In this document: positions 10,257 through 49,900 of the stretch, in pieces
How the letters are laid out: every line of letters begins with the position of its first letter
Numbering within the stretch: the first letter of the stretch is position 1
NCBI GenBank assembly: GCA_038380435.1
Contig: JAWZYU010000004.1
Coordinates: 24,526,001 to 24,590,000 of the forward strand
Source of the DNA: Ryuthela nishihirai
Taxonomy: Eukaryota; Arthropoda; Arachnida; Araneae; Heptathelidae
Direction of reading: 5' to 3'
DNA length: 64,000 nucleotides
Translations under genes and position numbers: made by a program
The notes under the pieces: generated by a model
The model's input: the letters and a program-made list of their open reading frames with translations, nothing else
What the model was told of the DNA's origin: nothing
The model's database searches: none

Positions 10257-11676
10257 TTAATACTGTGTTGGACTGCCATTTGAGTCCAGCATACCCTGTA
10301 TACATCGTGGCATAGCGTCTACCAGTGTCTTAAAGTCCCCAGGAGGGATACGACACCATTCGTCCACAAGAAACGTAATCAATTCTTGCTTGTTCAATGG
10401 ATCTCGAAAGCGCTGCCTGAGAATTGTTCCAGAAGTTCTTTCAGATTTTCCAGCAGGTTGATATTTGGTGATTGTGGTAGCCATGGTATATGAAAATAGT
10501 TCAGTTTCATGCTCCTCAAACTACTGGATGACCACGTGTGCTCTGTGGATGGGAGCATTGTCATCCTGAAAGACAGTTCTCTCTTCATGAAAGAAATGAT
10601 GTACCACTAAATGAAAATGATCATTCAGGACCTTCAAATAGCGATTGGCATTAATCTTGTCTTCCAAAGGAACGAGTGCAGCCAAACCATGCCAGAGGAA
10701 GCATCCCACATCATTACAGAACCGCCAGAACCCTTAACAGTAGGAAACAAGCAATCAGCGTTGTAAGCCACACGTGCACTCGTCCATTTGTTGGAAACAA
10801 AGTGTAGGATGATTCGTCAGACCACATCTCATTCCTCCACTGCTCAAATGTCCTTTGCTTGTGCTCTTTGCACCACTGGACACGACGATGTACGTTGAGA
10901 GGTGTGATGGGGCTCGTGAAGTGCAACTCGATCGTGGACTCTCGCGTGATATCCAGCTCTATGGAGTTCTGGACGTTCTGTTTATGATGAAACTGATCTC
11001 TCGTGTTTTACTTTGAAATCCATGTGCAACTGATCAGTTGTAGCTGGCCGGTTTCACTTTGCATATCGCACTAACGCTCTATTCTGGAGTATGCTCTTTT
11101 TCGCACGTCGTTGCCTTTTGCAGATGATGTCTTCCCTTTAGATTTCCATGCAGACATGACCTTGGAAACACTTCCGCATGAAACGTTAACGAGTTCAGTA
11201 GTCCCTGTTCAGCTGTCTTAGTGACCGACGCTCCGTTGAGTTGGGTTGTTTTACCTCTGAGCGGCACTTTTTTGCACACCATGGGCTAAATGGCCAGGTC
11301 ACATGGACCCCGAAGGCTCAGAGAAGATTGAGGGAGGGGACTCACTGGAACAGCTATTGGGAGACAGATGGTAGCCTCCCGTCAAGGCCATCCAGCGTGT
11401 TCTTTAACGTGCACAGGGTATGGCTCTCCCGCACACGGGGCCACGGCTTAACGTTCCATCCGACGGACGGCGGCATTTTCAAGCCCATCGGTGTCCCCTA
11501 CTGACCGTGGGCAGGGCGGGGGAATATTTGCGGAGATAAATCTCAACGCTGACCCAGCTGGGACTCGAACCTGAGAACTACAGATTACGAGCCTGGCACG
11601 CTACCGACTGAGCCACCCCCGCCCCCTGACAAACGGGCCCTCCTTCGAAATCTCTATGGTCTTTTCTCGACGACAT
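10257..11676 (-). pseudogene. Tc1-like transposase, frameshifted and split by a SINE
   Basis: Read on the minus strand from ATG at 11676 (MSSRKDH). A helix-turn-helix portion (NGASVTKTAEQ, then KGNDVRK in a shifted frame) is followed by ELHRAGYHARV, then the DDE core. The first Asp lies in WSDESSYTLF (within 10714-10926), the second in VFQDDNAPIHRA (within 10521-10709), and the last acidic residue in LPQSPNINLLEN (within 10394-10588). The C-terminus ends GSPTQY at 10258. The spacing fits DD34E Tc1 enzymes of about 340 residues, which cut and paste at TA sites. At least three frameshifts separate these pieces, and SINE-B occupies 11241-11626 near the N-terminus, so it cannot make an enzyme. 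Confidence 0.85.
11241..11626 (-). mobile_element. SINE-B copy 2, inserted in the Tc1 pseudogene
   Basis: Near full length on the minus strand: tRNA-like head with GGCTCAGTCGGTAGCG and B box GGTTCGAGTCCCAGCTGGGT, central core with CACGTTAAAGAACACGCTGG, and 3' end AGAGGTAAAACAACCCAA. It interrupts the Tc1 reading frame between its first 17 codons and the helix-turn-helix, so it is younger than that transposon. A clean target-site duplication was not resolved. Confidence 0.85.
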
Positions 11677-13297: not shown

Positions 13298-13646
13298 TGC
13301 TATGCCTCTGATCGGCACTTTTTTGCATAGACATGGCCTAAATGGCGAAGTCACAAGGACTCCAAGGGCTCAGAAAAGTTTTGGGGGAGGGGAGACAGAT
13401 AATAGCCTCCCGTGAAGTCCATCCAGCGTATTCTTTAATGTACACAGGTATTGGCTCTCACACGGAGCCACGGCTTAACGCCCCATCCAACGGACGGCGG
13501 GCTTTCCAAGCCCATTGGTGTCTCCTACTGACTGTGAGCAGGGAGTTTTGCGGAAATAAATATCAACGCTGACTCATGTGGGGCTCGAACCTGTGAACTA
13601 CAGATTACGATCCGGGCGCGCTACCGACTGAGCCATCCCCTCCCCA
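13298..13646 (-). mobile_element. SINE-B copy 3
   Basis: Minus-strand copy with a recognisable head (GGCTCAGTCGGTAGCGCGCC), B box (GGTTCGAGCCCC), core (TACATTAAAGAATACGCTGG) and 3' end (GTGCCGATCAGAGGCATAGC). More diverged than the copies at 15959 and 19728. Confidence 0.8.
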
Positions 13647-15958: not shown

Positions 15959-16342
15959 GGGGCGGGATGGCTCAGTCGGTAGCGCGCCAGGCTCGTAATC
16001 TGTAGTTCCCAGGTTCGAGGCCCAGCTTGGTCAGCGTTGAGATTTATCTCCGCAAAATTCCCCGCCCTGCCCACGGTCAGTAGGGGACACCGATGGGCTT
16101 GAAAAGGCTGCCGGCCATCGGATGGGACGTTAAGCCGTGGCTCCGTGTGCGGGAGAGCCATACCTTGTGCACGTTAAAGAACACGCTGGATGGCCTTGAC
16201 GGGAGACTACCATCTGTCTCCCAACAGCTGTTCCAGTGGGTCCCCTCCTCCAACCTTCTCTGAGCCTTCGGGGTCCATGTGGCTTGGCCATTTAGCCCAT
16301 GGTGTGCAAAAAAGTACCGCTCAGAGGTAAAACAACCCAACC
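15959..16342 (+). mobile_element. SINE-B copy 4, full length with target-site duplication
   Basis: The best reference copy. The tRNA-like head has TGGCTCAGTCGGTAGCGC, an anticodon loop like CTCGTAATC and B box AGGTTCGAGGCCC. The long body has CGTTAAGCCGTGGCTCCGTG and GTGCACGTTAAAGAACACGC. The 3' end is GAGGTAAAACAACCCAACC. An 11-bp perfect duplication CAGAAGTGTGA lies at 15948-15958 and 16343-16353. The 384-bp length and absence of poly-A suggest mobilisation by a LINE that recognises the 3' sequence. Confidence 0.9.
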
Positions 16343-16798: not shown

Positions 16799-16812
16799 CT
16801 TGTTGGCAATTG

Positions 16813-17289
16813 GGGGGGGGGGGGGCTCAGTCGATAGCACGATAGGCTCGTAATCTGTAGTTCCCAGGTTCGAGTCCCAGCTGGGTCAGCATTGATATTT
16901 ATCTTCCCAAAATTCCCTGCCCTACCCACGGTCAGTAGGGGACACCAATGGGCCCCCTATTGACCGTGGGCTACACACCAATGGCTTGGAAACACCAATG
17001 GGCTTGGAAACACAGCCTTGGAAACAAGCCTACACACCAATGGGCTTGGAAAGGCCGCCGTCCGTCGGATTGGATGTTAAGCCGTGGCTCCGTGTGCGGG
17101 ACCTGTGCACGTTAAAGAACACGCTGGATGGCCTTGACGGGAGCCTACCATCTATCTTCCAACAGCTGTTCCAATGGGTCCCCTCCCCCAAACTCTGAGT
17201 TCTCTCTCTGAGCCTTTGGGGTCCATGTGACCTGGTCATTTAGCCCATGGTGTGCAAAAAGTGCCACTCAGAGGTAAAACAACTCAACT
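16813..17289 (+). mobile_element. SINE-B copy 5, internally rearranged, with 13-bp target-site duplication
   Basis: A poly-G run at the 5' edge is followed by GGCTCAGTCGATAGCACGAT and B box GGTTCGAGTCCCAGCTGGGT. The stretch at 16935-17060 holds several partial copies of ACACCAATGGGCTTGGAAA, so the usual single module is expanded. The core and 3' end are normal. TTGTTGGCAATTG flanks both sides (16800-16812 and 17290-17302). Confidence 0.88.
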
Positions 17290-19727: not shown

Positions 19728-20112
19728 GGGGCGGGGGTGGCTCAGTCGGTAGCGCGTCAGGCTCGTAATCTGTAGTTCCCAGGTTCGAGGCCCAGCTGGG
19801 TCAGCGTTGAGATTTATCTCCGCAAAATTCCCCGCCCTGCCCACGGTCAGTAGGGGACACCGATGGGCTTGAAAAGGCCGCCGTCCATCGGATGGGACGT
19901 TAAGCCGTGGCCCCGTGTGCGGGAGAGCCATACCCTGTGCACGTTAAAGAACACGCTGGATGGCCTTGACGGGAGGCTACCATCTGTCTCCCAACAGTCT
20001 GTTCCAGTGGGTCCCCTCCCCCAACCTTCTCTGAGCCTTCGGGGTCCATGTGACCTGGCCATTTAGCCCATGGTGTGCAAAAAAGTGCCGCTCAGAAGTA
20101 AAACAACCCAAC
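19728..20112 (+). mobile_element. SINE-B copy 8, full length with target-site duplication
   Basis: Very similar to the copy at 15959-16342 throughout. The 12-bp duplication CCGCTCATTGCT is at 19716-19727 and 20113-20124. The high similarity between these two copies suggests comparatively recent activity of the family. Confidence 0.9.
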
Positions 20113-25200: not shown

Positions 25201-25278
25201 AGATACTTATAATCTGTAGCAAATTTTAATAAGCCGTATGATCATTAGCAACAAAAAAACCTGACATGTTACGGCCTA
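25201..25278 (+). repeat. ~100-bp dispersed unit, left part (palindrome target)
   Basis: AATCTGTAGCAAATTTTAAT through GTTACGGCCTA matches 39246-39315. It is cut at 25278/25279 by the palindrome. Its continuation (TTTGGAGCAGGAAAAAAAAT) resumes after 38688. Confidence 0.8.
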
Positions 25279-25915
25279 AGTAGGGGGAAAGTGGGGGTTC
25301 TGGAACAGAGGCGGAGCTATGTTAATCCTATGGGCTCCGCCTCCCGTGTGTTTCAAGCTGGAGGCGGAGCACATTGGTCAGAATTCTCACTGTTTTTAAG
25401 ACTGAAATCAGACAATGGTGAATAAAATACCTCCCTCCAGTAATGTATTAATCTGAAATTATTCAGTTAAATTGCAGATAATCCACTCGTAATTTTCACC
25501 GACATTCATCTTGGTTTCCACCATTTAGAAACCTGACATCACCACAAACTCCCACGATTTTACCGTTAGTCCACCATCTTGGTTTCTAACCTCATCCGAA
25601 ATTACTAAGTCCAGACTCCGTCATCTTGATTCCTGACATATTAATTAAATGCTTATCAGAAGTTCCACTCCCCTTTATTAAACCTCCCCTATCAAAAACT
25701 GTCACCCCCTCATTAATTAACCCATTATCGAAAGTCCCCTTTTATTAAAAAATAAGAACCCCCCCCCCCCCCCTCTTTTCCACTGATTCCATTATTTTGA
25801 CATCCCCTGTGATTGCGTCATCCTCCTATAGCGTGAATTAAGTCCGCCATTTTGAAATCTGATGTCGCCAATTAGAGGAGCTTCTTTTCATTTACTGCGG
25901 GACAGTCTTTTAAAT

Positions 25916-26190
25916 CAGTTTCTGCGGGATAGTCCTCCTTCCAGTATAAATACGACATCCATCAGTCAGAATCCTCATTCTGTTGCCAGACGTTGACAGT
26001 GACAGTTCTCTGCTGCTGCGTCTCAGTGATTTTTTTCAACTACAACAGTATTAGTTCTCGACGTCCTCCAGTTTCTGCGGAATAGTTCTCCTTCCAGTAT
26101 AAATACAACATCCATCAGTCAGAATCTTCATTCTGTTCTCAGACGTTGACCAGTGACAGTTCTCTGCGTCTCCGTGATTTTTTTCAACTG
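25916..26190 (+). promoter_or_regulatory. Tandemly duplicated TATA/initiator core promoter, left arm
   Basis: Two units at a 153-bp period each contain CCTTCCAGTATAAATAC (TATAAA at 25945 and 26098). Each is followed, with the initiator A 32 bp downstream of the TATA box, by TCATTC (A at 25977 and 26130), which fits the arthropod initiator TCAKTY at the usual spacing. The zinc-finger ATG at 26338 lies about 200 bp downstream of the second start. Further tandem duplication (GCAGAAGCCAATAGTGATAG at 26194 and 26267) lengthens the leader in this arm only. Confidence 0.65.
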
Positions 26191-26337
26191 CTAGCAGAAG
26201 CCAATAGTGATAGTTCTCAACCTCCTCGTGTAGCAGAACACGAGGAACCTTCTGCAGCTCTTTGCTGCAGAAGCCAATAGTGATAGTTCTCAACCTCCTC
26301 GTGTAGTATCAGTTATTTTACAACTCACTGCTACATA

Positions 26338-26784
26338 ATGCATCCATGTGATATATGTGAGAAGGCTTTCACGGTCCAGAAAAATCTCATTCGCCATATG
26401 AGAAATCATGATGGGAATAACCTGTTTAAGTGCTCTGAGTGCGAATCGACATTCTCAAGGAGATATGACGTTCGACGTCATGAGTTAACCCACACCTCTA
26501 GAAAAACCTACAAATGTGAAGAATGTGCCATGGAGTTTGGAAGAAAAGACAATCTTTTACGGCATCAAAGAAAGCCACACAATAATAAGCGAAAACGTTC
26601 TGAAGATGAAAGGATTCCCCAAAAGAAACAAAAACCAGACCCTGAAGACCCCTGTCAGTTTACAGAAGAAATGAAAAGAACCCTATCAGCACATAAACTG
26701 ATGGCAACGGAAGAAACATCTGTTGACCTCACCTTTTTCCTCGAGTCCTCACGGCAGTCACTCCTAACTCACCTGAAAGAATAA
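26338..26784 (+). CDS. C2H2 zinc-finger protein, left arm (upstream part of the polymerase frame)
   Basis: 148 residues with three classical C2H2 fingers: C4-C7-H20-H24, C32-C35-H48-H52 and C60-C63-H76-H81. A basic nuclear-localisation-like stretch (KRKRSEDERIPQKKQK, 85-100) and an acidic or mixed tail follow. The start is the first ATG after the promoter (26338), directly before the first finger. The frame ends in TAA at 26782-26784 and continues in the same frame into the polymerase ORF with no gap. Many related arthropod and cnidarian elements, as I recall, carry such fingers fused to the N-terminus of the polymerase. This may therefore be the N-terminal part of one split protein rather than a separate factor. 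Likely role: DNA binding at element ends. Confidence 0.8.
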   Translation: MHPCDICEKAFTVQKNLIRHMRNHDGNNLFKCSECESTFSRRYDVRRHELTHTSRKTYKCEECAMEFGRKDNLLRHQRKPHNNKRKRSEDERIPQKKQKPDPEDPCQFTEEMKRTLSAHKLMATEETSVDLTFFLESSRQSLLTHLKE

Positions 26785-29700
26785 TTGGCCTCGAAAGGTA
26801 GCATTAAATGGTACCTTGTCGTGCAAGTGCACTTCAGGCGAAAAGTCTCCCCTTCTACCTTCGAACACTGTACCCCGTTTTTCCGAAGTAACTGTGTCAC
26901 AAGTCTTCCTACATCATCCCTAAACAGAGAACTGGATTCAGCGTGTAAGAAGATAAAGATCTCATTTGAAGAATTTGAAGGAGCACATAGTGGATGGACA
27001 CTGGATGCCGTACTCCACGCAGAAATGAACATTGGAAAATATATCCCTCTTGCAGGATCTAGTTATATCCCTACTCCAAGAGAATTACTGTTAAAACACG
27101 CTATTGTCAATGTATGTAATTCCGACCAAAAATGTTTTGTCTGGTCTGTTTTAGCCTCTTTGTATCCTGCCACAGATAATCCGCAGCGCCTTAACAACTA
27201 CATACATTTAGAAGAAAAATTAAACACATCTGGCTTAATTTTCCCTGTTACAATAAATCAAATATCTAAATTCGAAAAAATGAACAACATTTCTGTCAAT
27301 GTTTTTGGATATGAGAAAGAGGTGTCCCCACTTTACATCACACCATTCAGATTTAAAGCTCATGCAAATCTCCTTCTGTTATCGGATGGTGAAAAGCAGC
27401 ATTATTGTGCCATTAAAAATATGAGTAGACTTCTCAGTCCTCTCACTAAACATAAATGTCAGGCTTTCTATTGTGATTACTGCCTTCACCGTTTCAAAAA
27501 TGAATCACTCTTGAAGGATCATATCCCCTATTGTCAAGAACATGGGCCCCAGAGAGTAGAATTTCCAACTGAAGAAGAAAAATGGCTGAAATTCACTAAT
27601 TTCAAGTTTCAGCAGCCCGTTCCATACGTGATTTATGCCGACTTTGAATCATTCCTAGTGAAAGTGAACACTTGTATGCCTAACCCTGAAAAATCTCACA
27701 CCACTATCACAGCAAATCATGAACCCTGTGGATTTGCATATCTTGTTGTTGGACCTGATGACTGCAGCTATAAACCTCCAGTAGTTTATAGAGGTCCTAA
27801 TGCAGTAGAAGAATTTTTAGAACGTCTGCTTAAAGAAGAAGAAAACATCAAAAATTTACTATCGATGATAAAGCCAATGCAACTCTCGAATCATGAAGAG
27901 AAACTGTTTCACGACACTACTGACTGTCATATTTGTAAGCGTGCCCTAGGAGCAGATCGTGTGAGAGATCACGATCATATAACAGGTAAATTCCGAGGAG
28001 CTGCCCATAATTCCTGTAATCTGAACTTTAAGTTAACCACTAGGATTCCAGTTATCTTTCACAACCTAAAGGGATATGACAGCCACCTTATTATGCAGGG
28101 AATCGGCAGAATTAAAAATAAGAAGATTAATTGCATTCCCAATAACATGGAAACATACATAGCCTTCTCCCTGGGGACATTACATTTTATAGACTCCTAT
28201 CAATTTTTAAGCACATCTCTTGAGAAGCTAGTAAATAATTTATCAACAGATGAGTTCCATATTTTAAAGGACTACGTTGAACCCGAAAGGCTACACTTGG
28301 TTCTGACAAAAGGAGTTTACCCCTATGATTATATCGACAACAGTCAAAAGTTTCAAGAAACAGTATTACCACCACGTGAAGCATTTTACAACCAACTCAC
28401 AGAAGAAGCGTTAGGGGAAGAAGACTACACCCATGCAATAAGAGTGTGGAATACATTCAACATAAAAAATCAAGGCCAGTATCATGACTTGTACCTGAAG
28501 ACAGACGTGCTCCTCTTAGCAGATGTTTTCGAAAGTTTCAGAAAAATATGCTTTAGACACTATGAAATCGATCCCTGTCATGTTTACACAGCTCCTGGAT
28601 TAGCCTGGCAATCATGCTTAAAAATGACAAATGAAAATCTTGAGTTGATAACTGACATTACAATGTACCTTTTCCTGGAAAAAGGCATACGAGGGGGATT
28701 TTCTGTGATATGTAATCGTCTTAGTACTGCAAACAACAAGTATTTGGACGCCTATAATCCTCAGTTACCCTCTAAATACATTATGTACTATGATGCTAAC
28801 AATCTTTATGGATGGGCAATGTCACAATGCCTCCCTCAAAGCGATTTTCGATGGCTTAATAAAGAAGAAATAGCAGATCTAAATATTACGACAATTGCTG
28901 ATGATTCGAATAAAGGATACATATTGGAAGTTGATTTAGATTATCCAGTTTCTCTGCACGACAAGCATAATGATTATCCACTAGCCCATGAGAAACTTCA
29001 GATTACCAGCAGCATGCTATCCCCATATTGTCAAAAGGTTGCCCAAAGCCTTGGAATAAATACAAGCCAATCAGTTGTGAAATTAGCCCCAAATCTAAAT
29101 TCTAAGGAAAAATATGTCCTTCATTATCGAAATCTCAAACAATATTTAGCCTTCGGTATGCAGCTGAAGGAAATACATCGCGTTTTAGAATTTAATCAGT
29201 CTTGCTGGCCAAAACCATATATAGAATTTAATACAGATCAGCGGAAGAAAGCTAGAAACGACTTCGAGAAGGACTTCTTCAAACTGATGAATAATGCTGT
29301 GTTTGGAAAAACGATGGAAAATTTGAGAAATCGAGTGAAAATTGAATTGACTCAGAGCCCGAAGAGAGTATGTAAGCTCGTAGCATCCCCTGCTTTTCAC
29401 GCTTTTCGTGTTTTTGACAACGACCTTGCATGTGTGCAATCAAAGCTAACTAAATTGAAACTCAACAGGCCTATTTATGCTGGTTTCAGTATTCTAGATA
29501 TTAGTAAACTATTGATGTATAGCTTTCATTATGACTATATTAGTCCGAAATATGGAGAAAAAGCTAAATTATTGTTCACTGATACAGATTCATTGTGCTA
29601 CGAGCTTCAAACCGAGGACGTGTATGCTGATATGAAAGCTGATATAGATCGTTTTGACACATCCAATTATCACATTGACCATGTTTTGCATAGTACATAT

Positions 29701-30057
29701 AATAAAAAGGTACTAGGTAAAATTAAAGATGAACTTTCAGGAGTACCTATCAAACAATTTGCAGGCCTTCTTTCTAAACTGTATTCCCTTCAGAGTTTAC
29801 ATGAGGAGAAGAAAACAGGGAAAGGAGTCCCCAAATACGTCGTAAAAAGAACCCTTCGTCACAAGGATTACAGAGACTGCTTAATAAACAAATCACCTTG
29901 TCGAGTAGATTTGACAAGGATTCAAAGTAGCAACCACCATCTTCATACAGTGAAAGGTGTAAAACTTGGTCTGTCACCATTTGACGATAAAAGATATATT
30001 TTAGAAAATGGTTATGACACCCTTTCGTACGGTCACTACAAAACAATGAAAAAATAA
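26785..30057 (+). CDS. Protein-primed family-B DNA polymerase (Polinton/Maverick type), left arm
   Basis: Open for 1090 codons (numbered from 26785). The first in-frame ATG is at 27025, which would give 1010 residues. An N-terminal domain carries a C2HC finger (C230, C233, H246, C250). The 3'-5' exonuclease comes next, with Exo I YADFES (D286, E288), Exo II FHNLKGYDSHL (N427, D432) and Exo III YLKTD (D574). Between Exo I and Exo II sits an endonuclease-VII-like Cys/His motif (C381, C384, DHDH 395-398, H408, C411). The polymerase core has motif A YYDANNLYGWAMSQ (D670), motif B KLMNNAVFGKTMEN (833-846) and motif C FTDTDSL (D933, D935). All catalytic residues are present and the length is normal for the family. 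These enzymes copy linear element DNA from a terminal protein primer. No other Polinton gene accompanies it. Its only visible defect is the TAA separating it from the zinc fingers. Confidence 0.92.
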   Translation: MASKGSIKWYLVVQVHFRRKVSPSTFEHCTPFFRSNCVTSLPTSSLNRELDSACKKIKISFEEFEGAHSGWTLDAVLHAEMNIGKYIPLAGSSYIPTPRELLLKHAIVNVCNSDQKCFVWSVLASLYPATDNPQRLNNYIHLEEKLNTSGLIFPVTINQISKFEKMNNISVNVFGYEKEVSPLYITPFRFKAHANLLLLSDGEKQHYCAIKNMSRLLSPLTKHKCQAFYCDYCLHRFKNESLLKDHIPYCQEHGPQRVEFPTEEEKWLKFTNFKFQQPVPYVIYADFESFLVKVNTCMPNPEKSHTTITANHEPCGFAYLVVGPDDCSYKPPVVYRGPNAVEEFLERLLKEEENIKNLLSMIKPMQLSNHEEKLFHDTTDCHICKRALGADRVRDHDHITGKFRGAAHNSCNLNFKLTTRIPVIFHNLKGYDSHLIMQGIGRIKNKKINCIPNNMETYIAFSLGTLHFIDSYQFLSTSLEKLVNNLSTDEFHILKDYVEPERLHLVLTKGVYPYDYIDNSQKFQETVLPPREAFYNQLTEEALGEEDYTHAIRVWNTFNIKNQGQYHDLYLKTDVLLLADVFESFRKICFRHYEIDPCHVYTAPGLAWQSCLKMTNENLELITDITMYLFLEKGIRGGFSVICNRLSTANNKYLDAYNPQLPSKYIMYYDANNLYGWAMSQCLPQSDFRWLNKEEIADLNITTIADDSNKGYILEVDLDYPVSLHDKHNDYPLAHEKLQITSSMLSPYCQKVAQSLGINTSQSVVKLAPNLNSKEKYVLHYRNLKQYLAFGMQLKEIHRVLEFNQSCWPKPYIEFNTDQRKKARNDFEKDFFKLMNNAVFGKTMENLRNRVKIELTQSPKRVCKLVASPAFHAFRVFDNDLACVQSKLTKLKLNRPIYAGFSILDISKLLMYSFHYDYISPKYGEKAKLLFTDTDSLCYELQTEDVYADMKADIDRFDTSNYHIDHVLHSTYNKKVLGKIKDELSGVPIKQFAGLLSKLYSLQSLHEEKKTGKGVPKYVVKRTLRHKDYRDCLINKSPCRVDLTRIQSSNHHLHTVKGVKLGLSPFDDKRYILENGYDTLSYGHYKTMKK

Positions 30058-31793
30058 CATAACAGAAAAAAACCAGAATATTTCACTGTTATTTTTAATA
30101 TGTTTGAGCTATTTATGTATAAAAAATATGATAATTTTATCCAAATGTTAGCATATAACCCCCTATATATGTAAAAATATTACATGTCATCATTATTATA
30201 TGTAGATAGCTGTATGTAAAAACCATTTCCTCTGTTAACCTGCATTTTTTTTTTGTAAGCAGGCTGTAAAGTATAATCAATGTGAAAAAGCATCATTGTG
30301 AAATGTATAAAATTGTAAACCAATGGAAATCATTACATGTGCACGCATTGTCATTGTTTCACCTAATACTTTGAAATCAATAAAAATATTTAAATGAAAT
30401 ATATGTTTCGTCTGAGTTTTATCTCTAGCAAGCGAGGAGGTAAACAAGTGGGACTCACGTGACTTACTCCACGTGCACTCGTGATGCTGACTCACTTCCA
30501 CCCGCTCACATCCTGTTGGAACGTCAGACCTCGCTCACTGCGAGAAAGCTCTTCTAGGATCCATTTCTGGGATTACACTTATAACAAAAGGTGGGTAATT
30601 CTCTAAATTTTCATGGTTTATCAAACATTACTTATAATTTCGTGATGTAGTGACGTTCTCAAGTATTAAGAAGTGATGAAAACATAAGATTTCCTTTCAA
30701 AGTTATCGTAACTCGCTTGCTTGCTTGTTACCGGAACGAGCCTCCTAGAAATCAACGTCTTTTTTTTTTAAAGCAATCACCTCTCAAAAGCACCGGGACT
30801 TCAATAAATGCGCTGAGTGCTGTGTTTATGAAAAATTTATCAGTACAGGATGAAATTCTAATTTTTACTTTGCAGAGACGAGAACTTTGCGTAGATTTTT
30901 ACAGAGAAACAATTGAAATTATTGCATCAGCTATTTAGCGATAAATTATTTTAGAGCAGATTTTTACTGAATATTAATACTTTAGAATAAAGGATAATTT
31001 CCGGTATATAATACAGAGGTGTACAGACGAATTATTTTTCCTATGAATAAAAAAAAAATAGGATTTTCATACTGTTATTCGAATTACTCAGTTAATTCAC
31101 CACTTATTACAACTGTTTAGTAAAAAAAAATGCATTTAATCCCTAGATTTTTGACGACTGAGATAAAAAAAAATAATGTGCCTACCTACATTAAATACAA
31201 TATAAAATAGCGAAAATTCACCACTAATTTCAGCTGCTTAATATCAAGAAATACAGACGATTTCCTGTATTTTTTTTTAGCATTGCATATAAGAAAAAAA
31301 AAAGACTAGCGAACGTATCAACATGTACCTCTGATACTTAAATACGACATGCTCTGTGTTTCAATATTACACATTTTTCAGTAGTTTACGCATTAATTAC
31401 TAATTTTTTTTTTCATTCAACAGTTAAGTATACCAATTGGAAGTACTGTGAGCAATATTTCCTGTTTAAATGAATCTCTCTACAAATCTGCTTTAAAATA
31501 TTTTCTTATAATTTAGGGCAAAATAAAGAATTTTAATTAGCTTTCTTTTAACACTCTATACTTAATATATTGTCATCAACGTATTCTATATACAAAACGA
31601 ATTAATACAGCCTAGTTACTGGATATTAACATAATATTGAAGTGCTTTCTACCTAAAGAATAAAAAAAAAATGAATACTTTAATTTTAATTACATTTTCA
31701 GCCACTAGATGGCGACACAGTTACTATTAGACCTTGGGGCAGACGAGAGAAACTTGAAACCTTTGCTCAGAGCGCCACCTAGCGGGATTTTGT
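30058..31793. other. Left-arm non-coding region after the polymerase
   Basis: AATAAA at 30379-30384, about 320 bp after the stop, is a plausible poly-A signal. Short frames of 73-74 codons (30277-30501 minus, 30717-30938 plus) are matched in the other arm, but this follows from arm identity and they have no recognisable domain. The arm ends with AGATGGCGACACAG and GCGCCACCTAGCGGGATTTT, then the loop terminus. Confidence 0.6.
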
Positions 31794-32246
31794 AGTAGTT
31801 TGTTGCCATTTACGGATCCCCACTAGTGCTTTCATGGCCACGCCCACGTGAAATGGGGTTTAGAATTAAAATAGTTTTTTTTTTTGGGGGGGGGGGGAAA
31901 TAGTACTTCTCATTATCAACAGATGGCGCCAGGGGGGGTAATAATGGGGAGGGCTTAAAATATAGGTAGGTCGACCGGGGGGTCTGAAAACGAGAAATTA
32001 GCCTGAAATAAAGGGTTTTTGGGAAAATAGTACTTCTCGCTGTCAACAGATGGTGCCACTGAGGGTGAAAGGGGAGTTTAATAAAGGGGAGGAATTATTA
32101 TTATTAATAAGGGGGCGTGGTCTGTTGCGTAATGATTATGCAATGATTACGCCATGTTACGTAATGTTACGTAATAGGGGGCGTGGCATGTGACGTCATA
32201 GGGGGGAAGCACAAGTGGGGGATCCGTACAATGGCAACAAACTACT
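31794..32246. repeat. Palindrome loop with AGTAGTTTG/CAAACTACT inverted ends
   Basis: The 453-bp centre starts AGTAGTTTGTTGCCATTTAC and ends GGCAACAAACTACT, so the terminal ~30 bp pair, including GGATCCCC. Beyond that the two sides are only partly similar (CCACGCCC and GTGCTT blocks). Inside are two direct repeats, 127 bp apart, of AAATAGTACTTCTC followed by CAACAGATGG(C/T)GCC (near 31898 and 32025), and GGGGGCGTGG blocks. Sequence at 60031-60660 is related. AGTAG also starts the outer ends, so the loop looks like a mini-element with its own termini, though no separate target-site duplication brackets it. Confidence 0.7.
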
Positions 32247-33657
32247 ACAAAATCCAGCTAGGTGGCGCTCTGAGCAAAGGCTTCAAGTTTCTCTCGTCTG
32301 CCCCAAGGTCTAATAGTAACTGTGTCGCCATCTAGTGGCTGAAAATGTAATTAAAATTAAAGTATTCAGTTTTTTTTTTTTATTCTTTAGGTAGAAAGCA
32401 CTTCAATATTATGTTAATTTCCAGTAACTAGGCTGTATTAATTCGTTTTGTATATAGAATATGTTGATGACAATATATTAAGTATATAGTGTTAAAAGAA
32501 ATCTAATTAAAATTCTTTATTTTGCCCTAAATTATAAGAAAATGTTTTAAAGCGGATTTGTAGAGAGATGCATTTAAACAGGAAATATTGCTCACATTAC
32601 TTCCAATTGGGATACTTAACTGTTGAATGAAAAAAAAAATTAGTAATTAATGCGTAAACTACTGAAAAATGTGTAATATTGAAACACGAGCATGTCGTAT
32701 TTAAGTATCAGAGGTACATGTTGATACGTTCGCTAGTCTTTTTTTTTTTCTTATATGCAATGCTAAAAAAAAAAACAGGAAATCGTCTGTATTTCTTGAT
32801 ATTAAGCAGCTGAAATTAGTGGTGAATTTTCGCTATTTTACATTGTATTTAATGTAGGTAGGCACATTATTTTTTTTTATCTCAGTCGTTAAAAATCTGG
32901 GGATTAAATGCATTTTTTTTTTACTAAACAGTTGTAATAAGTGGTGAATTAACTGAGTAATTCGAATAACAGTATGAAAATCCTATTTTTTTTTTATTCA
33001 TAGGAAATAAAATTCGTCTGTACACCTCTATATTATATACCGGAAATTATCCTTTATTCTAAAGTATTAATATTCAGTAAAAATCTGCTCTAAAATACTT
33101 TATCGCTAAATGGCTGATGGAATAATTTCAATTATTTCTCTGTAAAAATCTACGCAATGTTCTCGTCTCTGCAAAGTAAAAATTAGAATTTCATCGTGTA
33201 CTGATAAATTTTTCATAAACACAGCACTCAGCGCATTTATTGAAGTCCCGGTGCTTTTGAGAGGTGATTGCTTTAAAAAAAAGACGTTGATTTCTAGGAG
33301 GCTTGTTCCGGTAACAAGCAAACAAGCGAGTAACGATAACTTTGAAAGGAAATCTTATGTTTTCATCACTTCTTAATACTTGAGAACGTCACTACATCAC
33401 GAAATTATAAGTAATGTTTGATAAACCATGAAAATTTAGAGAATTACCCACCTTTTATTATAAGTGTAATCCCAGAAATGGATCCTAGAAGAGCTTTCTC
33501 GCAGTGAGCGAGGTCTGACGTTCCAACAGGATGTGAGCGGGTGGAAGTGAGTCAGCATCACGAGTGCACGTGGAGTAAGTCACGTGAGTCCCACTTGTTT
33601 ACCTCCTCGCTTGCTAGAGATAAAACTCAGACGAAACATATATTTCATTTTAAAATT

Positions 33658-33663
33658 TTTATT
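33658..33663 (-). terminator. Right-arm poly-A signal (AATAAA on minus strand)
   Basis: TTTATT on the plus strand, about 320 bp beyond the right-arm polymerase stop. It is the mirror of 30379-30384. Confidence 0.5.
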
Positions 33664-33983
33664 GATTTCAAAGTATTAGGTGAAACAATGACAATGCGTG
33701 CACATGTAATGATTTCCATTGGTTTACAATTTTATACATTTCACAATGATGCTTTTTCACATTGATTATACTTTACAGCCTGCTTACAAAAAAAATGCAG
33801 GTTAACAGAGGAAATGGTTTTTACATACAGCTATCTACATATAATAATGATGACATGTAATATTTTTACATATATAGGGGGTTATATGCACACATTTGGA
33901 TAAAATTATCATATTTTTTATACATAAATAGCTCAAACATATTAAAAATCACAGTGAAATATTCGGGGTTTTTTTCTGTTATG

Positions 33984-36900
33984 TTATTTTTTCATTGTTT
34001 TGTAGTGACCGTACGAAAGGGTGTTATAACCATTTTCTAAAATATATCTTTTATCGTCAAATGGTGACAGACCAAGTTTTACACCTATCACTGTATGAAG
34101 ATGGTGGTTGCTACTTTGAATCCTTGTCAAATCTACTCGACAAAGTGATTTGTTTATTAAGCAGTCTCTGTAATCCTTGTGACGAAGGGTTCTTTTTACG
34201 ATGTATTTGGGGACTCCTTTCCCTGTCTTCATCTCCTCATGTAAACTCTGAAGGGAATACAGTTTAGAACGAAGGCCTGCAATTGTTTGATAGGTACTCC
34301 TGAAAGTTCATCTTTAATTTTACCTAGTACCTTTTTATTACGTGTACTATGCAAAACATGGTCAATGTGATAATCGGATGTTTCAAAACGATCTATATCA
34401 GCTTTCATATCAGCATACACGTCCTCGGTTTGAAGCTCGTAGCACAATGAATCTGTATCAGTGAACAATAATTTAGCTTTTTCTCCATATTTCGGACTAA
34501 TATAGTCATAATGAAAGCTATACATCAATAGTTTACTAATATCTAGAATACTGAAACCAGCATAAATAGGCCTGTTGAGTTTCAATTTAGTTAGCTTTGA
34601 TTGCACACATACGAGGTCGTTGTGAAAAACACGAAAAGCGTGAAAAGCAGGGGATGCTACGAGTTTACATATTCTCTTCGGGCTCTGAGTCAATTCAATT
34701 TTCACTCGATTTCTCAAATTTTCCATCGTTTTTCCAAACACAGCATTATTCATCAGTTTGAAGAAGTCCTTCTCGAAGTCGTTTCTAGCTTTCTTCCGCT
34801 GATCTGTATTAAATTCTATATATGGTTTTAGCCAGCAAGACTGATTAAATTCTAAAACGCGATGTATTTCCTTCAACTGCATACCGAAGGCTAAATATTG
34901 TTTGAGATTTCGATAATGAAGGACATATTTTTCCTTAGAATTTAGATTTGGGGCTAATTTCACGACTGATTGGCTTGTATTTATTCCAAGGCTTTGGGCA
35001 ACCTTTTGACAATATGGGGATAGCATGCTGCTGGTAATCTGAAGTTTCTCAGGGGCTAGTGGATAATCATTATGCTTGTCGTGCAGAGAAACTGGATAAT
35101 CTAAATCAACTTCCAATATGTATCCTTTATTCGAATCATCAGCAATTGTCGTAATATTTAGATCCGCTATTGCTTCTTTATTAAGCCATCGAAAATCGCT
35201 TTGAGGGAGGCATTGTGACATTGCCCATCCATAAAGATTGTTAGCATCATAGTACATAATGTATTTAGAGGGTAACTGAGGATTATAGGCGTCCAAATAC
35301 TTGTTGTTTGCAGTACTAAGACGATTACATATCACAGAAAATCCCCCTCGTATGCCTTTTTCCAGAAAAAGGTACATTGTAGGGTCAGTTATCAACTCAA
35401 GATTTACATTTGTCATTTTTAAGCATGATTACCAGGCTAATCCAGGAGCTGTGTAAACATGACAGGGATCGATTTCATAGTACCTGAAGCATATTTTTCT
35501 GAAACTTTCGAAAACATCTGCTAAGAGGAGCACGTCTGTCTTCAGGTACAAGTCATGATACTGGCCTAGATTTTTTATGTTGAATGTATTCCACACTCTT
35601 ATTGCATGGGTGTAGTCTTCTTCCCCTAACGCTTCTTCTGTGAGTTGGTTGTAAAATGCTTCACGTGGTGGTAATACTGTTTCTTCAAACTTTAGACTGT
35701 TGTCGATATAATCATAGGGGTAAACTCCTTTTCTCAGAACCAAGTGTAGCCTTTCGGGTTCAACGTAGTCCTTTAAAATATGGAACTCATCTGTTGATAA
35801 ATTATTTACTAGCTTCTCAAGAGATGTGCTTAAAAATTGATAGGAGTCTGTAAAATGTAATGTCCCCAGGGAGAAGGCTATGTATGTTTCCATGTTATTG
35901 GGAATGCAATTAATCTTCTTATTTTTAATTCTGCCGATTCCCTGCATAATTAGGTGGCTGTCATATCCCTTTAGGTTGTGAAAGATAACTGGAATCCTAG
36001 TGGTTAACTTAAAGTTCAGATTACAGGAATTATGGGCAGCTCCTCGGAATTTACCTGTTATATGATCGTGATCTCTCACACGATCTGCTCCTAGGGCACG
36101 CTTACAAATATGACAGTCAGTAGTGTCGTGAAACAGTTTCTCTTCATGATTCGAGAGTTGCATTGGCTTTATCATCGATAGTAAATTTTTGATGTTTTCT
36201 TCTTCTTTAAGCAGACGTTCTAAAAATTCTTCTACTGCATTAGGACCTCCATAAACTACTGGAGGTTTATAGCTGCAGTCATCAGGTCCAACAACAAGAT
36301 ATGCAAATCCACAGGGTTCATGATTTGCTGTGATAGTGGTGTGAGATTTTTCAGGGTTAGGCATACAAGTGTTCACTTTCACTAGGAATGATTCAAAGTC
36401 GGCATAAATCACGTATGGAACGGGCTGCTGAAACTTGAAATTAGTGAATTTCAGCCATTTTTCTTCTTCAGTTGGAAATTCTACTCTCTGGGGCCCATGT
36501 TCTTGACAATAGGGGATATGATCCTTCAAGAGTGATTCATTTTTGAAACGGTGAAGGCAGTAATCACAATAGAAAGCCTGACATTTATGTTTAGTGAGAG
36601 GACTGAGAAGTCTACTCATATTTTTAATGGCACAATAATGCTGCTTTTCACCATCCGATAACAGAAGGAGATTTGCATGAGCTTTAAATCTGAATGGTGT
36701 GATGTAAAGTGGGGACACCTCTTTCTCATATCCAAAAACATTGACAGAAATGTTGTTCATTTTTTCGAATTTAGATATTTGATTTATTGTAACAGGGAAA
36801 ATTAAGCCAGATGTGTTTAATTTTTCTTCTAAATGTATGTAGTTGTTAAGGCGCTGCGGATTATCTGTGGCAGGATACAAAGAGGCTAAAACAGACCAGA

Positions 36901-37255
36901 CAAAACATTTTTGGTCGGAATTACATACATTGACAATAGCGTGTTTTAACAGTAATTCTCTTGGAGTAGGGATATAACTAGATCCTGCAAGAGGGATATA
37001 TTTTCCAATGTTCATTTCTGCGTGGAGTACGGCATCCAGTGTCCATCCACTATGTGCTCCTTCAAATTCTTCAAATGAGATCTTTATCTTCTTACACGCT
37101 GAATCCAGTTCTCTGTTTAGGGATGATGTAGGAAGACTTGTGACACAGTTACTTCAGAAAAACGGGGTATAGTGTTCGAAGATAGAAGGGGAGACTTTTC
37201 ACCTGAAGTGCACTTGCACGACAAGGTACCATTTAATGCTACCTTTCGAGGCCAA
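33984..37255 (-). pseudogene. Family-B DNA polymerase, right arm, inactivated
   Basis: Same gene as 26785-30057, inverted. Four lesions relative to the left arm: TGA codons at 37199-37201 and 37154-37156, each where the left arm has CGA (CpG-to-TpG type changes); TAA at 35429-35431 where the left has CAA; and a 1-bp deletion near 34281 causing a stop at 34229. Long open pieces remain (35429-37015, 34229-35416, 33984-34232), and motifs A, B and C are still readable within 34229-35416. The first two stops lie before the first internal ATG, so they would matter only if translation began upstream or by read-through; the later two would truncate any product. Mutations are scattered, as in neutral decay. 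Confidence 0.92.
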
Positions 37256-37702
37256 TTATTCTTTTAGGGGAGTTAGGAGTGACTGCCGTGAGGACTCGAG
37301 GAAAAAGGTGAGGTCAACAGATGTTTCTTCCGTTGCCGTCAGTTTATGTGCTGATAGGGTCCTTTTCATTTCTTCTGTAAACTGACAGGGGTCTTCAGGG
37401 TCTGGTTTTTGTTTCTTTTGGGGAATCCTTTCATCTTCAGAACGTTTTCGCTTATTATTGTGTGGCTTTCTTTGATGCCGTAAAAGATTGTCTTTTCTTC
37501 CAAACTCCATGGCACATTCTTCACATTTGTAGTTTTTTCTAGAGGTGTGGGTTAACTCATGACGTCGGACGTCATCTCTCCTTGAGAATGTCGATTCGCA
37601 CTCAGAGCACTTAAACAGGTTATTCCCATCATGATTTCTCATATGACGAATGAGATTTTTCTGGACCGTGAAAGCCTTCTCACATATATCACATGGATAC
37701 AT
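37256..37702 (-). CDS. C2H2 zinc-finger protein, right arm
   Basis: 148 residues, intact, nearly identical to the left-arm copy. Visible differences include H2Y, Y43D, T57N, M122T and H145P. All twelve zinc ligands of the three fingers are kept. Like the left copy, the frame stops at TAA (37256-37258) and runs on in phase into the polymerase frame, which is broken here. It is driven by the mirrored promoter. Two intact fingers despite the decayed polymerase could mean chance or selection on DNA binding. Confidence 0.75.
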   Translation of the reverse strand: MYPCDICEKAFTVQKNLIRHMRNHDGNNLFKCSECESTFSRRDDVRRHELTHTSRKNYKCEECAMEFGRKDNLLRHQRKPHNNKRKRSEDERIPQKKQKPDPEDPCQFTEEMKRTLSAHKLTATEETSVDLTFFLESSRQSLLTPLKE

Positions 37703-37830
37703 TATGTAGCAGTGAGTTGTAAAATAACTGATACTACACGAGGACGTTGAGAACTATCACTATTGGCTTCTAGCAGTTGAAAAAAATCATGGAGACGCAG
37801 AGAACTGTCACTGGTCAACGTCTGAGAACG

Positions 37831-38050
37831 GAATGAAGATTCTGACTGATGGATGTTGTATTTATACTGGAAGGAGAACTATTCCGCAGAAACTGGAGGA
37901 CGTCGAGAACTAATACTGTTGTAGTTGAAAAAAATCACTGAGACGCAGCAGCAGAGAACTGTCACTGTCAACGTCTGGCAACAGAATGAGGATTCTGACT
38001 GATGGATGTCGTATTTATACTGGAAGGAGGACTATCCCGCAGAAACTGAT
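37831..38050 (-). promoter_or_regulatory. Duplicated TATA/initiator core promoter, right arm
   Basis: Mirror of 25916-26190: TTTATA (TATAAA on the minus strand) at 37861-37866 and 38014-38019, with GAATGA (TCATTC) at 37831-37836 and 37984-37989. The TATA-to-initiator spacing is 32 bp in both. Confidence 0.6.
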
Positions 38051-38682
38051 TTAAAAGACTGTCCCGCAGTAAATGAAAAGAAGCTCCTCTAATTGGCGAC
38101 ATCAGATTTCAAAATGGCGGACTTAATTCACGCTGTAGGAGGATGACGCAATCACAGGGGATGTCAAAATAATGGAATCAGTGGAAAAGAGGGGGGGGGG
38201 GGTTCTTATTTTTTAATAAAAGGGGACTTTCGATAATGGGTTAATTAATGAGGGGGTGACAGTTTTTGATAGGGGAGGTTTAATAAAGGGGAGTGGAACT
38301 TCTGATAAGCATTTAATTAATATGTCAGGAATCAAGATGGCGGAGTCTGGACTTAGTAATTTCGGATGAGGTTAGAAACCAAGATGGTGGACTAACGGTA
38401 AAATCGTGGGAGTTTGTGGTGATGTCAGGTTTCTAAATGGTGGAAACCAAGATGGATGTCGGTGGAAATTACGAGTGGATTATCTGCAATTTAACTGAAT
38501 AATTTCAGATTAATACATTACTGGAGGGAGGTATTTTATTCACCATTGTCTGATTTCAGTCTTAAAAACAGTGAGAATTCTGACCAATGTGCTCCGCCTC
38601 CAGCTTGAAACACACGGGAGGCGGAGCCCATAGGATTAACATAGCTCCGCCTCTGTTCCAGAACCCCCACTTTCCCCCTACT

Positions 38683-38720
38683 GGGCTATTTGGAGCAGGA
38701 AAAAAAATCAAAAAGTCAGG
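38683..38720 (+). repeat. ~100-bp dispersed unit, right part (palindrome target)
   Basis: GGGCTATTTGGAGCAGGAAA resumes the unit interrupted at 25278. It aligns with GGCCTATCTGGAGCAGGAAA at 39310-39329. Confidence 0.8.
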
Positions 38721-41175: not shown

Positions 41176-41430
41176 GTGGGTATCATTCGATGATTTTTTT
41201 TTTCCGTTTTTTCAATCAGGAATACGAAAGCCTCTGCTTTCACCAAATCTCTTTAATTTTTAAACATGTAATCATCAGAACAATCCGAAACGAGCAAATT
41301 GCAGGGGTGCACTAATTGTACATGTTAAAGTTTTTCAGATCAGTCATCGAACTGTTTTAAAGCAAATTTAATTCCAATAGTAGTTATAAAAAAGATCAGT
41401 TGGGAAGAACTCCAATTTTTCTTTGGAATA

Positions 41431-41643
41431 CACCTATCCCTCGATTTACACGGTACTCAGTTCACAAAATTTTGGCTTTGCACGGTCAAAAAATGCAACC
41501 AGTTTCGATTTACACGGTACTGAGAGATTTCCTTTCTATGTACGTCTCAGTCAGTACCGTGTAAATCGAAACTGGTTACATTTTTTGACCGTGCAAAGCC
41601 AAAATTGTGTGAACTGAGTACCGTGTAAATCGAGGGATAGGTG
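41431..41643. mobile_element. Hairpin MITE, 213 bp, pogo/Tigger-like ends
   Basis: Nearly the whole element is an inverted repeat: 41431-41525 (CACCTATCCCTCGATTTACA onward) pairs with 41548-41643 around a ~20-bp loop. TA flanks both ends (41429-41430, 41644-41645). CCCTCGATTTAC at the termini resembles pogo/Tigger ends. No coding capacity. A transcript would fold into a ~95-bp stem. Confidence 0.85.
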
Positions 41644-41649
41644 TATTTT

Positions 41650-45956: not shown

Positions 45957-46640
45957 AAAAAAAAACATTTTTTAAAACAATTTTTTGGCTTGTGATGGCA
46001 GTCATGCGCAGCAACTGATTCCTGTTTTAAGAGCTCACTAATATTTTCAGTCTTAAATTTTGCCAAGGTGAACCGTTACGTTTTAAAGTACGTATTAAGG
46101 CTGACACTTTTTTGGTGACAAAAGGTTTCGCATTCCATCTACAAAAAAAAAAAAAAAAAAAACTGTGATGTAGGAGCCCCTCAAATCCAAAATATTTTCA
46201 GGCATTTCAAGATCATTTCTGTTATCAGGAAAACATTTCTGTTATCAGGAAAACATTTCTCTTTTTACGAGCAGCTTACTAGAAGACAGCTACAAAAGGA
46301 AGCTTGCCATTAGAGTTTCCATCCTCCAGAATTATTCTAATAATTATCAAGAATTCTTCAACCTTGACAAACGAACTACCAGAAATCCTTTTCAGGGGAA
46401 TTGCTTCTAATGAGCAGATAATTGAAATAGACAAAAAAAAAAACATTTATTTTACCCAAGCATACAGGTACTGGACAGAAAAATGGGAACAGTTCCATGT
46501 TATCTGAATTGAAAAACGCATTTAGAGTTCAATAACTTCTTAAATATGATTTTTAATGAAAAATATGTAAATATGTCTAAAGATAAATTAAAGATCTTAA
46601 TCAAATCTATCTAAATCTTGCTCTTAAACAATATTTATTC
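45957..46640. other. Unassigned AT-rich DNA
   Basis: A20 run at 46142-46161 and a short direct repeat GGAAAACATTTCTGTTATCA at 46210-46255. No gene. Confidence 0.4.
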
Positions 46641-46643
46641 AGT

Positions 46644-46825
46644 AAATGGTTAGAAAGCTTGTCAACGGGACCTGGGTTGGAGCCCCAGGTAACGCATGGA
46701 TGTTTGTACTGTCTTCCTGCTGAGGTCTCGCCTTCCTCACAGATCTTCTATGTGACGTATTCAACTGACAGGTTCCTGTCCGACCTTTGTGGCAAGTAGC
46801 TGCTTGAAAGGGTATTTACATTTTA
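46644..46825 (+). mobile_element. SINE-A copy 4, left flank of the satellite
   Basis: The B-box-like segment and CGCATGGATGTTTGTACTG are followed by the SINE-A body (GACAGGTTCCTGTCCGACC, AAGTAGCTGCTTGA). The A-box half of the head is eroded. Confidence 0.75.
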
Positions 46826-46930
46826 TCCAAAGAGTTATGAACGCTGGAATATTAAATAGATTACAAAAAAAGGACCCAAAATTTAATTAAAACATTGACA
46901 CAGGTAAAAAGATCAGAGATCATAGTGGAC

Positions 46931-49900
46931 TCTACTAGTCCACTAAGATCAAGTATTTATTCTACTAGTCTACTAAGATCCAGTGATGCTCTACTAGTCT
47001 ACTAAGATCCAGTAGATACTCTACTAGTGTACTGAGGTCCAGTAGATACTCTACTAGTCTACTAAGATCAAGTAGATGCTCTACTAGTCTACTAAGATCC
47101 AGTAGATGCTCTACTAGTCTTCTAAGATCCAGTAGATACTTTACTAGTGTACTGAGGTCCAGTAGATACTCTACTAGTCTACTAAGATCAAGTAGATGCT
47201 CTACTAGTCTACTAAGATCAAGCAGATGCTCTACTAGTCTACTAAGATCCAGTAGATCGCTACTAGTCTACTAAGATCCAGTAGATACTCTAATAGTGTA
47301 CTGAGGTCCAGTAGATACTCTACAGTCTACTAAGATCAAGTAGATGCTCTACTAGTCTTCTAAGATCCAGCAGATACTCTACTAGTGTACTGAGGTCCAG
47401 TAGATACTCTACTAGTCTACTAAGATCAAGTAGATGCTCTACTAGTCTACTAAGATCAAGCAGATGCTCTACTAGTCTACTAAGATCCAGTAGATGCTCT
47501 ACTAGTCTACTAAGATCCAGTAGATACTCTAATAGTGTACTGAGGTCCAGTAGATACTCTACAGTCTACTAAGATCAAGTAGATGCTCTACTAGTCTTCT
47601 AAGATCCAGTAGATACTCTACTAGTGTACTGAGGTCCAGTAGATACTCTACTAGTCTACTAAGATCAAGTAGATGCTCTACTAGTCTACTAAGATCAAAC
47701 AGATGCTCTACTAGTCTACTAAGATCAAGCAGATGCTCTACTAGTCTACGAAGATCCAGTAGATACTCTACTAGTGTACTGAGCTCCAGTAGATACTCTA
47801 CAGTCTACTAAGATCAAGTAGATGCTCTACTAGTCTTCTAAGATCCAGTAGATACTCTACTAGTATACTGAGGTCCAGTAGATACTCTACTAGTCTACTA
47901 AGATCAAGTAGATGCTCTACTAGTCTACTAAGATCAAGCAGATGCTCTACTAGTCTACTAAGATCAAGCAGATGCTCTACTAGTCGACTAAGATCCAGTA
48001 GATACTCTACTAGTGTACTGAGGTCCAGTAGATAGTTTACTAGTCTACTAAGATCCAGTAGATACTCTACTAGTCTACTAAGATCTGGTAGATACTCTAC
48101 TAGTGTACTGAGGTCCAGTAGATATTCTACTAGTCTACTAAGATCAAGCAGATGCTCTACTAGTCTACTAAGATCAAGTAGATGCACTACTAGTCTACTA
48201 AGATCCAGTAGATACTCTACTAGTGTACTGAGGTCCAGTAGATAGTCTACTAGTCTACTAAGATCCAGTAGATGCTCTACTAGTCTACTAAGATCTAGTA
48301 GATACTCTACTAGTGTACTGAGGTCCAGTAGATACTCTACTAGTCTACTAAGATCAAGTAGATGCTCTACTAGTCTACTAAGATCAAGCAGATGCTCTAC
48401 TACTCTACTAAGATCAAGCAGATACTCTACTAGTCTACTAAGATCAAGTAGATGCTCTACTAGTCTACTAAGATCCAGTAGATAGTCTACTAGTCTACTA
48501 AGATCAAGTAGATGCTCTACTAGTCTACTAAGATCAAGTAGATGCTCTACTAGTGTACTGAGGTCCAGTAGATACTCTACTAGTCTACTAAGATCAAGTA
48601 GATGCTCTACTAGTCTACTAAGATCCAGTAGATAGTCTACTAGTCTGCTAAGATCAAGTAGATACTCTACTAGTCTACTAAGATCAAGTAGATGCTCTAC
48701 TAATCTACTAAGATCCAGTAGATACTCTACTAGTGTACTGAGGTCCAGTAGATACTCTACTAGTCTACTAAGATCCAGTAGATGCTCTACTAGTCTACTA
48801 AGATCAAGTAGATGCTCTACTAGTCTACTAAGATCCATTAGATACTCTACTAGTGTACTGAGGTCCAGTAGATACTCTACTAGTCTACTAAGATCCAGTA
48901 GATGCTCTACTAGTCTTCTAAGATACAGTAGATAATCTACTAGTGTACTGAGGTCCAGTAGATACTCTACTAGTCTACTAAGATCAAGTAGATGCTCTAC
49001 TAGTCTACTAAGATCAAGCAGATGCTCTACTAGTCTACTGAGATCCAGTAGATGCTCTACTAGTCTACTAAGATCCAGTAGATACTCTACTAGTGTACTG
49101 AGGTCCAGTAGATAGTCTACTAGTCTACTAAGATCAAGTAGATGCTCTACTAGTCTTCTAAGATCCAGTAGATACTCTACTAGTGTACTGAGGTCCAGTA
49201 GATACTCTACTAGTCTATTAAGATCCAGTAGATGCTCTACTAGTCATCTAAGATCCAGTAGATACTCTACTAGTGTACTGAGGTCCAGTAGATACTCTAC
49301 TAGTCTACTAAGATCAAGTAGATGCTCTACTAGTCTACTAAGATATAGTAGATAGTCTACTAGTCTACTAAGATCAAGTAGATGCTCTACTAGTCTACTA
49401 AGATCAAGTAGATGCTCTACTAGTGTACTGAGGTCCAGTAGATACTCTACTACTCTACTAAGATCCAGTAGATGCTCTACTAGTCTACTAAGATCCAGTA
49501 GATACTCTACTAGTGTACTGAGGTCCAGTAGATAGTCTACTAGTCTACTAAGATCAAGTAGATGCTCTACTAGTCTTCTAAGATCCAGTAGATACTCTAC
49601 TAGTGTACTGAGGTCCAGTAGATACTCTACTAGTCTATTAAGATCCAGTAGATGCTCTACTAGTCATCTAAGATCCAGTAGATACTCTACTAGTGTACTG
49701 AGGTCCAGTAGATACTCTACTAGTCTACTAAGATCAAGTAGATGCTCTACTAGTCTTCTAAGATCCAGTAGATACTCTACTAGTGTACTGAGGTCCAGTA
49801 GATACTCTACTAGTCTACTAAGATCAAGTAGATGCTCTACTAGTCTACTAAGATCAAGCAGATGCTGTACTTCTTCTAAGATCCAGTAGATGCTCTGCTA

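Follow-up and report, generated by a model that had tools for sequence, protein, structure and literature searches.

The window, by which we mean the whole 64-kb stretch of DNA analyzed, contains a 13.4-kb palindrome at positions 25279–38682. With about even confidence, we read this palindrome as an integrated and decayed derivative of one Polinton/adintovirus-type end that was made by fold-back on replicating DNA before integration. An inner inverted repeat that starts with AGTAGTTTGTT seems to be the seed of the fold-back and to be still readable near the axis of the palindrome.

Extent and termini of the palindrome

The palindrome was first described in an initial annotation and is confirmed by in-register inverted pieces that run from 25279/38682 to 31810/32230 and are 97–100% complementary. 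A full alignment of the arms, in which 25279–31835 was paired with 32203–38682, has 95 substitutions in 6472 ungapped columns (1.47%), and the arms differ in length by 76 bp. The termini, claimed to be Polinton-like, are present as described: AGTAGGGGG is read inward at both ends of the element, and the outermost 60 bases are identical between the ends (60/60). The 60-bp flanks outside the element are alike at 6 of 60 positions, that is, they are unrelated. Because the outermost 60 bases are identical and the flanks are unlike, the palindrome ends at the element's own termini.

The outer left arm (25279–26197, forward strand), which begins with the Polinton-like terminus, is the least diverged part, with 6 substitutions in 916 columns. 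The outer right arm (37734–38682, reverse strand) has the terminus CCCCCTACT and is 98.6% identical to the left arm over 955 bp. Both arms have, upstream of their zinc finger, a tandem duplication of 153 bp with TATAAATA-like promoter sequence (25916–26189). The inner left arm (30058–31793, forward strand) is without recognized coding sequence, and the inner right arm (32247–33982, reverse strand) was placed by its complementarity to the left arm.

The hexamers flanking the element are GGCCTA on the left (25273–25278, forward strand) and GGGCTA on the right (38683–38688, forward strand), which match at five of six positions. Duplication lengths of 2–12 were tried, with a good match at 6 only, and random pairs of 6-mers from the window reach 5/6 with P = 0.0066. 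A 6-bp target-site duplication is therefore likely present, though imperfect; the length given in the initial annotation is the only one that fits, and its two copies are not identical. Identical ends, unlike flanks, and near-matching hexamers together indicate that these boundaries are those of one element.

Zinc-finger and polymerase genes

Each arm contains a C2H2 zinc-finger open reading frame (ORF) of 148 amino acids (aa). The left copy (26338–26784, forward strand) matches PF00096 in three stretches (E = 1.6e-16), and the right copy lies at 37256–37702 (reverse strand). Family-B DNA polymerase (PolB) sequence, recognized by its relatives and motifs, follows in the left arm, in frame with the zinc finger (26785–30057, forward strand), and is open over 1090 codons. 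In the right-arm PolB (33983–37255, reverse strand), three additional premature stops and a 1-bp frameshift interrupt the frame, and the open pieces include 34229–35428 and 35429–37153. An in-frame stop at 26782–26784, common to both arms, divides the zinc finger from PolB. The proposal that each arm encodes a zinc finger and a Polinton-type polymerase thus needs two amendments. Both genes are recognizable in both arms, but they are separated by the shared stop, and only the left polymerase is open.

A search for relatives of PolB scored 7992 candidates, and 3391 had E ≤ 0.001. The best full-length relatives are 55–56% identical, and among the 120 relatives listed, all those with an organism name are from invertebrate animals (corals, molluscs, and spiders). 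Identity to the PolB of Parasteatoda house spider adintovirus is 53%. Exonuclease and polymerase motifs are conserved. A 528-aa ORF of the right arm (35429–37015) matches PF03175 (DNA_pol_B_2, E = 9.3e-10); the left 1090-aa ORF has no PF03175 match at E ≤ 0.001, and just Endonuclease_7 was returned, below the cut-off. This Endonuclease VII-like stretch (PF02945) lies between the exonuclease motifs within 26785–27789 and scores just under the cut-off in the left ORF and above it in the right piece. A PHROGs search gave matches to endonuclease VII families only, and in a search of solved structures (alignment A1, 132 sequences) the 60 matches listed all fall on the zinc-finger part.

A C2H2 pattern occurs within the first 250 residues, in one protein with the polymerase, in 39 of the 120 listed relatives. 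An OTU-like Cys motif, found by regular expression and without an HMM match, is present in the window PolB and in 71 of the 120; by this motif, the N-terminus of PolB may be OTU-like. On virus contig L001, a PolB relative adjoins an rve integrase and a Pox_A32-type ATPase, and this type of PolB therefore belongs to Polinton-like genomes. Judged by its sequence, the polymerase of both arms is a Polinton/adintovirus-type, protein-primed-type family-B DNA polymerase.

Other Polinton genes were searched for with tests of limited sensitivity, and no hexon, rve integrase, capsid, packaging ATPase, or protease gene was detected in the window. When 25 ORFs of two related virus contigs from IMG/VR scans were searched against the window, the only matches, at limited sensitivity, came from the two PolBs. 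The inner arms, the loop, and their surroundings have 49 listed ORFs with a length of 35 aa or more, and the 7 of these that were scanned with Pfam gave no match at E up to 1. The earlier statement that the element has no capsid or integrase gene holds as far as these two tests reach. Because integrase, capsid, ATPase, and protease were not found at this limited sensitivity, the element is regarded as a derivative and not as a complete Polinton. Rfam gave no match at gathering score across the whole window.

Inner inverted repeat and loop

The arm junction had been placed at 31794–32246. A loop with a flanking repeat is indeed located there, but high identity between the arms runs to 31809, and the symmetry continues inward, more diverged, to about 31857. 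At the change point there are 13 changes in 510 bp outside versus 10 in 48 bp inside, a contrast reached by 1 of 5000 random placements and one whose indel part needs care because the short repeats and homopolymer runs there make indels frequent. Substitutions alone number 11 in 510 bp versus 5 in 48 bp (P = 0.009).

The left copy of the inner inverted repeat (31794–31857, forward strand) starts with AGTAGTTTGTT; it is arm-like over 31794–31809 and diverged over 31810–31857. The right copy (32177–32246, reverse strand) ends with AACAAACTACT. Between them is an unpaired loop (31858–32176) of related units, 79% alike, with CAGATGG(C/T)GCC and TTACGTAA repeats. The starting sequence AGTAGTTTGTT is found at 31794, at 32246 on the other strand, and in a third exact copy at 60031. 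This third copy begins a separate, degraded relic (60031–61250, forward strand, right end approximate) with a loop-like array that matches the loop with E of about 1e-22 (64–66% over 190–329 bp). The relic also contains 56 bp that match the outer arm's promoter stretch in reversed orientation (89%, E = 4e-13), and the sequence upstream of AGTAGTTTGTT in the relic differs from the palindrome arm.

From these matches, we infer that AGTAGTTTGTT is the end of a related element and that a small copy was present in the progenitor, its two ends providing the fold-back repeat. The loop is flanked by TTTTGT and ACAAAA, which are reverse complements and show no direct duplication. These flanks fit fold-back through a nested element and not a later insertion. 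Insertion of a nested element after the palindrome had formed was ruled out on the same grounds, since a duplication would be expected in place of reverse complements.

The pattern AG[AG]TGGCGC has five matches in the 64 kb (31772, 31921, 32260, 60185, and 60442), all of them in the arm ends, the loop, or the relic. The pattern resembles the CTCF core, and because of this resemblance the loop may be an insulator-like array.

Divergence and decay of the arms

Between the arms, PolB has 29 amino-acid or stop differences, of which 11 arose in the right arm and 8 in the left, while 10 are ambiguous; both arms have therefore decayed. Over both ORFs, with codons containing stops left out, 33 differences are non-synonymous and 15 are synonymous, which gives a dN/dS of 0.57 (P = 0.075 against neutrality), and weak constraint on the arms after the duplication is possible. 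At 195 positions that are invariant in 17 relatives, the window PolB deviates at three, two of which are common to both arms; the relatives themselves deviate at 0–11. The progenitor PolB thus looks to have been under constraint until recently before the palindrome arose. The stop common to both arms means that this PolB already carried a lesion or had an unusual layout. Some decay may have preceded the palindrome, and the shared stop speaks slightly for it.

The differences are not evenly spread. Of the 95 substitutions, 6 fall in the outer 916 columns and 89 in the remaining 5556 (binomial test against an even distribution, P = 0.014). A stretch that is identical in both arms (26885–27789 in the left arm, forward strand) corresponds to a gap of 906 columns between substitutions, and 0 of 20000 random placements gave a gap so long. 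Gene conversion probably accounts for the uneven spread, including this stretch and the low divergence of the outer arm.

Origin of the palindrome

In the reading we favor, the progenitor had a short inverted repeat inside its PolB half, probably the ends of the small nested AGTAGTTTGTT element. During protein-primed strand-displacement replication, the displaced single strand would fold back at this repeat, and its 3' end would be extended on its own strand through PolB, the zinc finger, and the terminal repeat to the end of the molecule. The product would be a palindrome with the left end at both of its ends. Because both ends are the left end, those needed for replication and integration would be kept and the other genes lost. 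An integrase supplied in trans could then insert the palindrome, after which the arms would decay with some gene conversion between them. Of the head-to-head molecule proposed in the initial annotation, the fold-back is supported by the abrupt loss of arm identity at 31809, where an inverted repeat already existed, whereas a helper integrase and a defective-interfering role of the element are presumptive.

Fold-back at the inner repeat explains the anatomy of the element on free and on integrated DNA alike. It is possible, though we give it less than an even chance, that an ordinary Polinton was inserted and that its right half was later broken and then mended by fold-back at the inner repeat, with the left half copied outward until it annealed to the right terminal repeat. 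Such repair of an integrated copy would yield a nearly identical structure, which counts against fold-back before integration. It would keep both termini and the duplication, make a second insertion unnecessary, produce the same change point at 31809, and account for the stop common to both arms as decay before the repair. For this reason, the argument that the duplication shows insertion as one unit does not hold. The duplication matches at 5/6 only, and fold-back repair that anneals to the other terminal repeat keeps it; gap repair in an integrated copy, if it ran through the terminal repeats, would likewise keep the termini and the duplication, and the argument therefore does not decide between the two. 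The imperfect duplication, the presence of one copy in the 64-kb window, and the shared stop also count against fold-back before integration.

Under repair, the outermost arms would date from the insertion and should be no less diverged than the inner ones, but the reverse was observed (6/916 versus 89/5556 columns, P = 0.014), although gene conversion could hide the expected signal. The decay shared from before the palindrome is also small for an old insertion repaired late, amounting to 2 of 195 invariant positions and one stop. Fold-back on free replicating DNA, at about even confidence, is therefore favored over repair in an integrated copy, which we regard as a tentative second choice. 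Several arguments favor free DNA. Copying to the end of a linear molecule stops exactly at the terminus, while in an integrated copy the new strand must locate the terminal repeat at the other end. Divergence is lower in the outer arms than in the inner arms, as described above. Protein-primed strand displacement exposes long single strands, which is established for phi29 and adenovirus and would apply to Polintons by inference. In a study on yeast, inverted repeats in single-stranded DNA that were up to 30 kb apart and up to ~25% diverged folded back efficiently (PMC10164571).

An established palindromic family with many transpositions, in which conversion keeps the arms alike and stops at the loop flanks, is improbable. 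The conversion-like tract at 26885–27789 agrees with such a family, as does the relic at 60031, in which the loop and the promoter stretch recur in opposite orientation. However, a second complete copy was not found in the 64 kb, and the relic begins at AGTAGTTTGTT with no arm sequence beyond it. Long inverted arms were not seen in the examined parts of the two related virus contigs (15.4 or 16.1 of 17.4 kb and 13.6 of 15.1 kb), although two contigs allow little to be concluded.

Assembly and library artifacts are known to include long palindromes, but a fold-back read is very unlikely here, given that the palindrome ends exactly at transposon termini with unlike flanks and that the arms have decayed independently at conserved codons, differ unevenly, and differ in length by 76 bp. 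Two insertions of one element in opposite orientation, joined later by a deletion, would give inverted arms with independent decay, but this is the least probable explanation in view of the outer duplication (5/6, P = 0.0066) and the constantly high arm identity up to a single point.

How Polintons replicate has so far been deduced from their genes and hardly observed. If the favored origin is correct, an integrated fold-back product with its seed would be physical evidence for single-stranded, strand-displaced linear Polinton DNA, and a count of palindromic copies in animal genomes would offer a test for palindromic defective genomes like those known from other protein-primed or hairpin-primed viruses. 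Transcription across the loop, should it occur, would also make the element a natural hairpin directed at its own family.

Other repeats in the window

A tRNA-like fragment (59980–60025) abuts the left end of the relic at 60031. Heads resembling tRNA-Thr(CGT) occur at 4008–4083, 11550–11626, 13570–13646, 15959–16033, 16812–16888, and 19728–19803. Several belong to repeats of ~390 bp with up to 96% similarity; these form a tRNA-derived SINE family that is concentrated in the first 20 kb. A 30-bp minisatellite of ~201 units (46929–52942) lies between inverted repeats (46491–46869 and 53022–53206) that are 80–88% alike, and no target-site duplication of 2–10 bp was found for these repeats. A hairpin at 41427–41647 has 97-nt arms, 98% complementary, and a 27-nt loop. 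Searches with a 183-aa ORF (58593–59144) gave no match.

Comparison with known systems

The element resembles Polintons/Mavericks in its protein-primed-type PolB, AGT-type terminus, and terminal inverted repeats, and the likely 6-bp duplication, imperfect here, would be a further likeness. For vertebrate Mavericks, one survey gives terminal repeats of 46–1,447 bp (mean 402) in intact copies, ends of (AG)3 or (AGT)2, and 6-bp duplications (PMC8097293). Unlike these, the element is palindromic and its capsid, ATPase, protease, and integrase were not detected; its terminal repeats of ~6.5 kb are, as the initial annotation held, far above the usual length. Adintoviruses are defined, in another source, by a PolB with an N-terminal OTU-like domain, a hexon, and an rve integrase (PMC11071296). 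The similarity to the PolB of the house spider adintovirus is the point of likeness. The element differs in having PolB with zinc fingers only, hexon and an rve integrase with chromodomain not having been detected at limited sensitivity.

Palindromic deletion forms are known from adenoviruses and yeast linear killer plasmids as derivatives of protein-primed linear DNA. Those forms are extrachromosomal, whereas the element is integrated, and we know of no integrated counterpart. The nearest described product is the snap-back genome of AAV, a defective-interfering form that is self-complementary, contains one genome end, may be symmetric or asymmetric, and needs helper functions (PMC8235507). 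Like it, the element is self-complementary and has one genome end twice. AAV, however, is a parvovirus with hairpin priming and packaged molecules, while the element is Polinton-type, integrated, and 13.4 kb long.

The nearest described genomic locus is Mu killer of maize, in which part of a transposon, with its own gene and terminal repeat, is duplicated in inverted orientation and which was proposed to give a hairpin RNA that silences the family (PMC3440606). Mu killer is a rearranged MuDR transposon, whereas the element is derived from a Polinton. By analogy, fold-back forms might be a regular by-product of Polintons/adintoviruses that integrates, yielding palindromic satellites with PolB and both replication ends, and hairpin transcripts across the loop, with stems of several kb that match the polymerase of the live virus, could act as an RNA-interference locus against the parent, as Mu killer does against MuDR; we consider this doubtful. 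No report of a palindromic Polinton/Maverick was found in the literature searched, the coverage of which mostly excludes subscription papers. Among these systems, we would classify the element as a non-autonomous, palindromic derivative of a Polinton.
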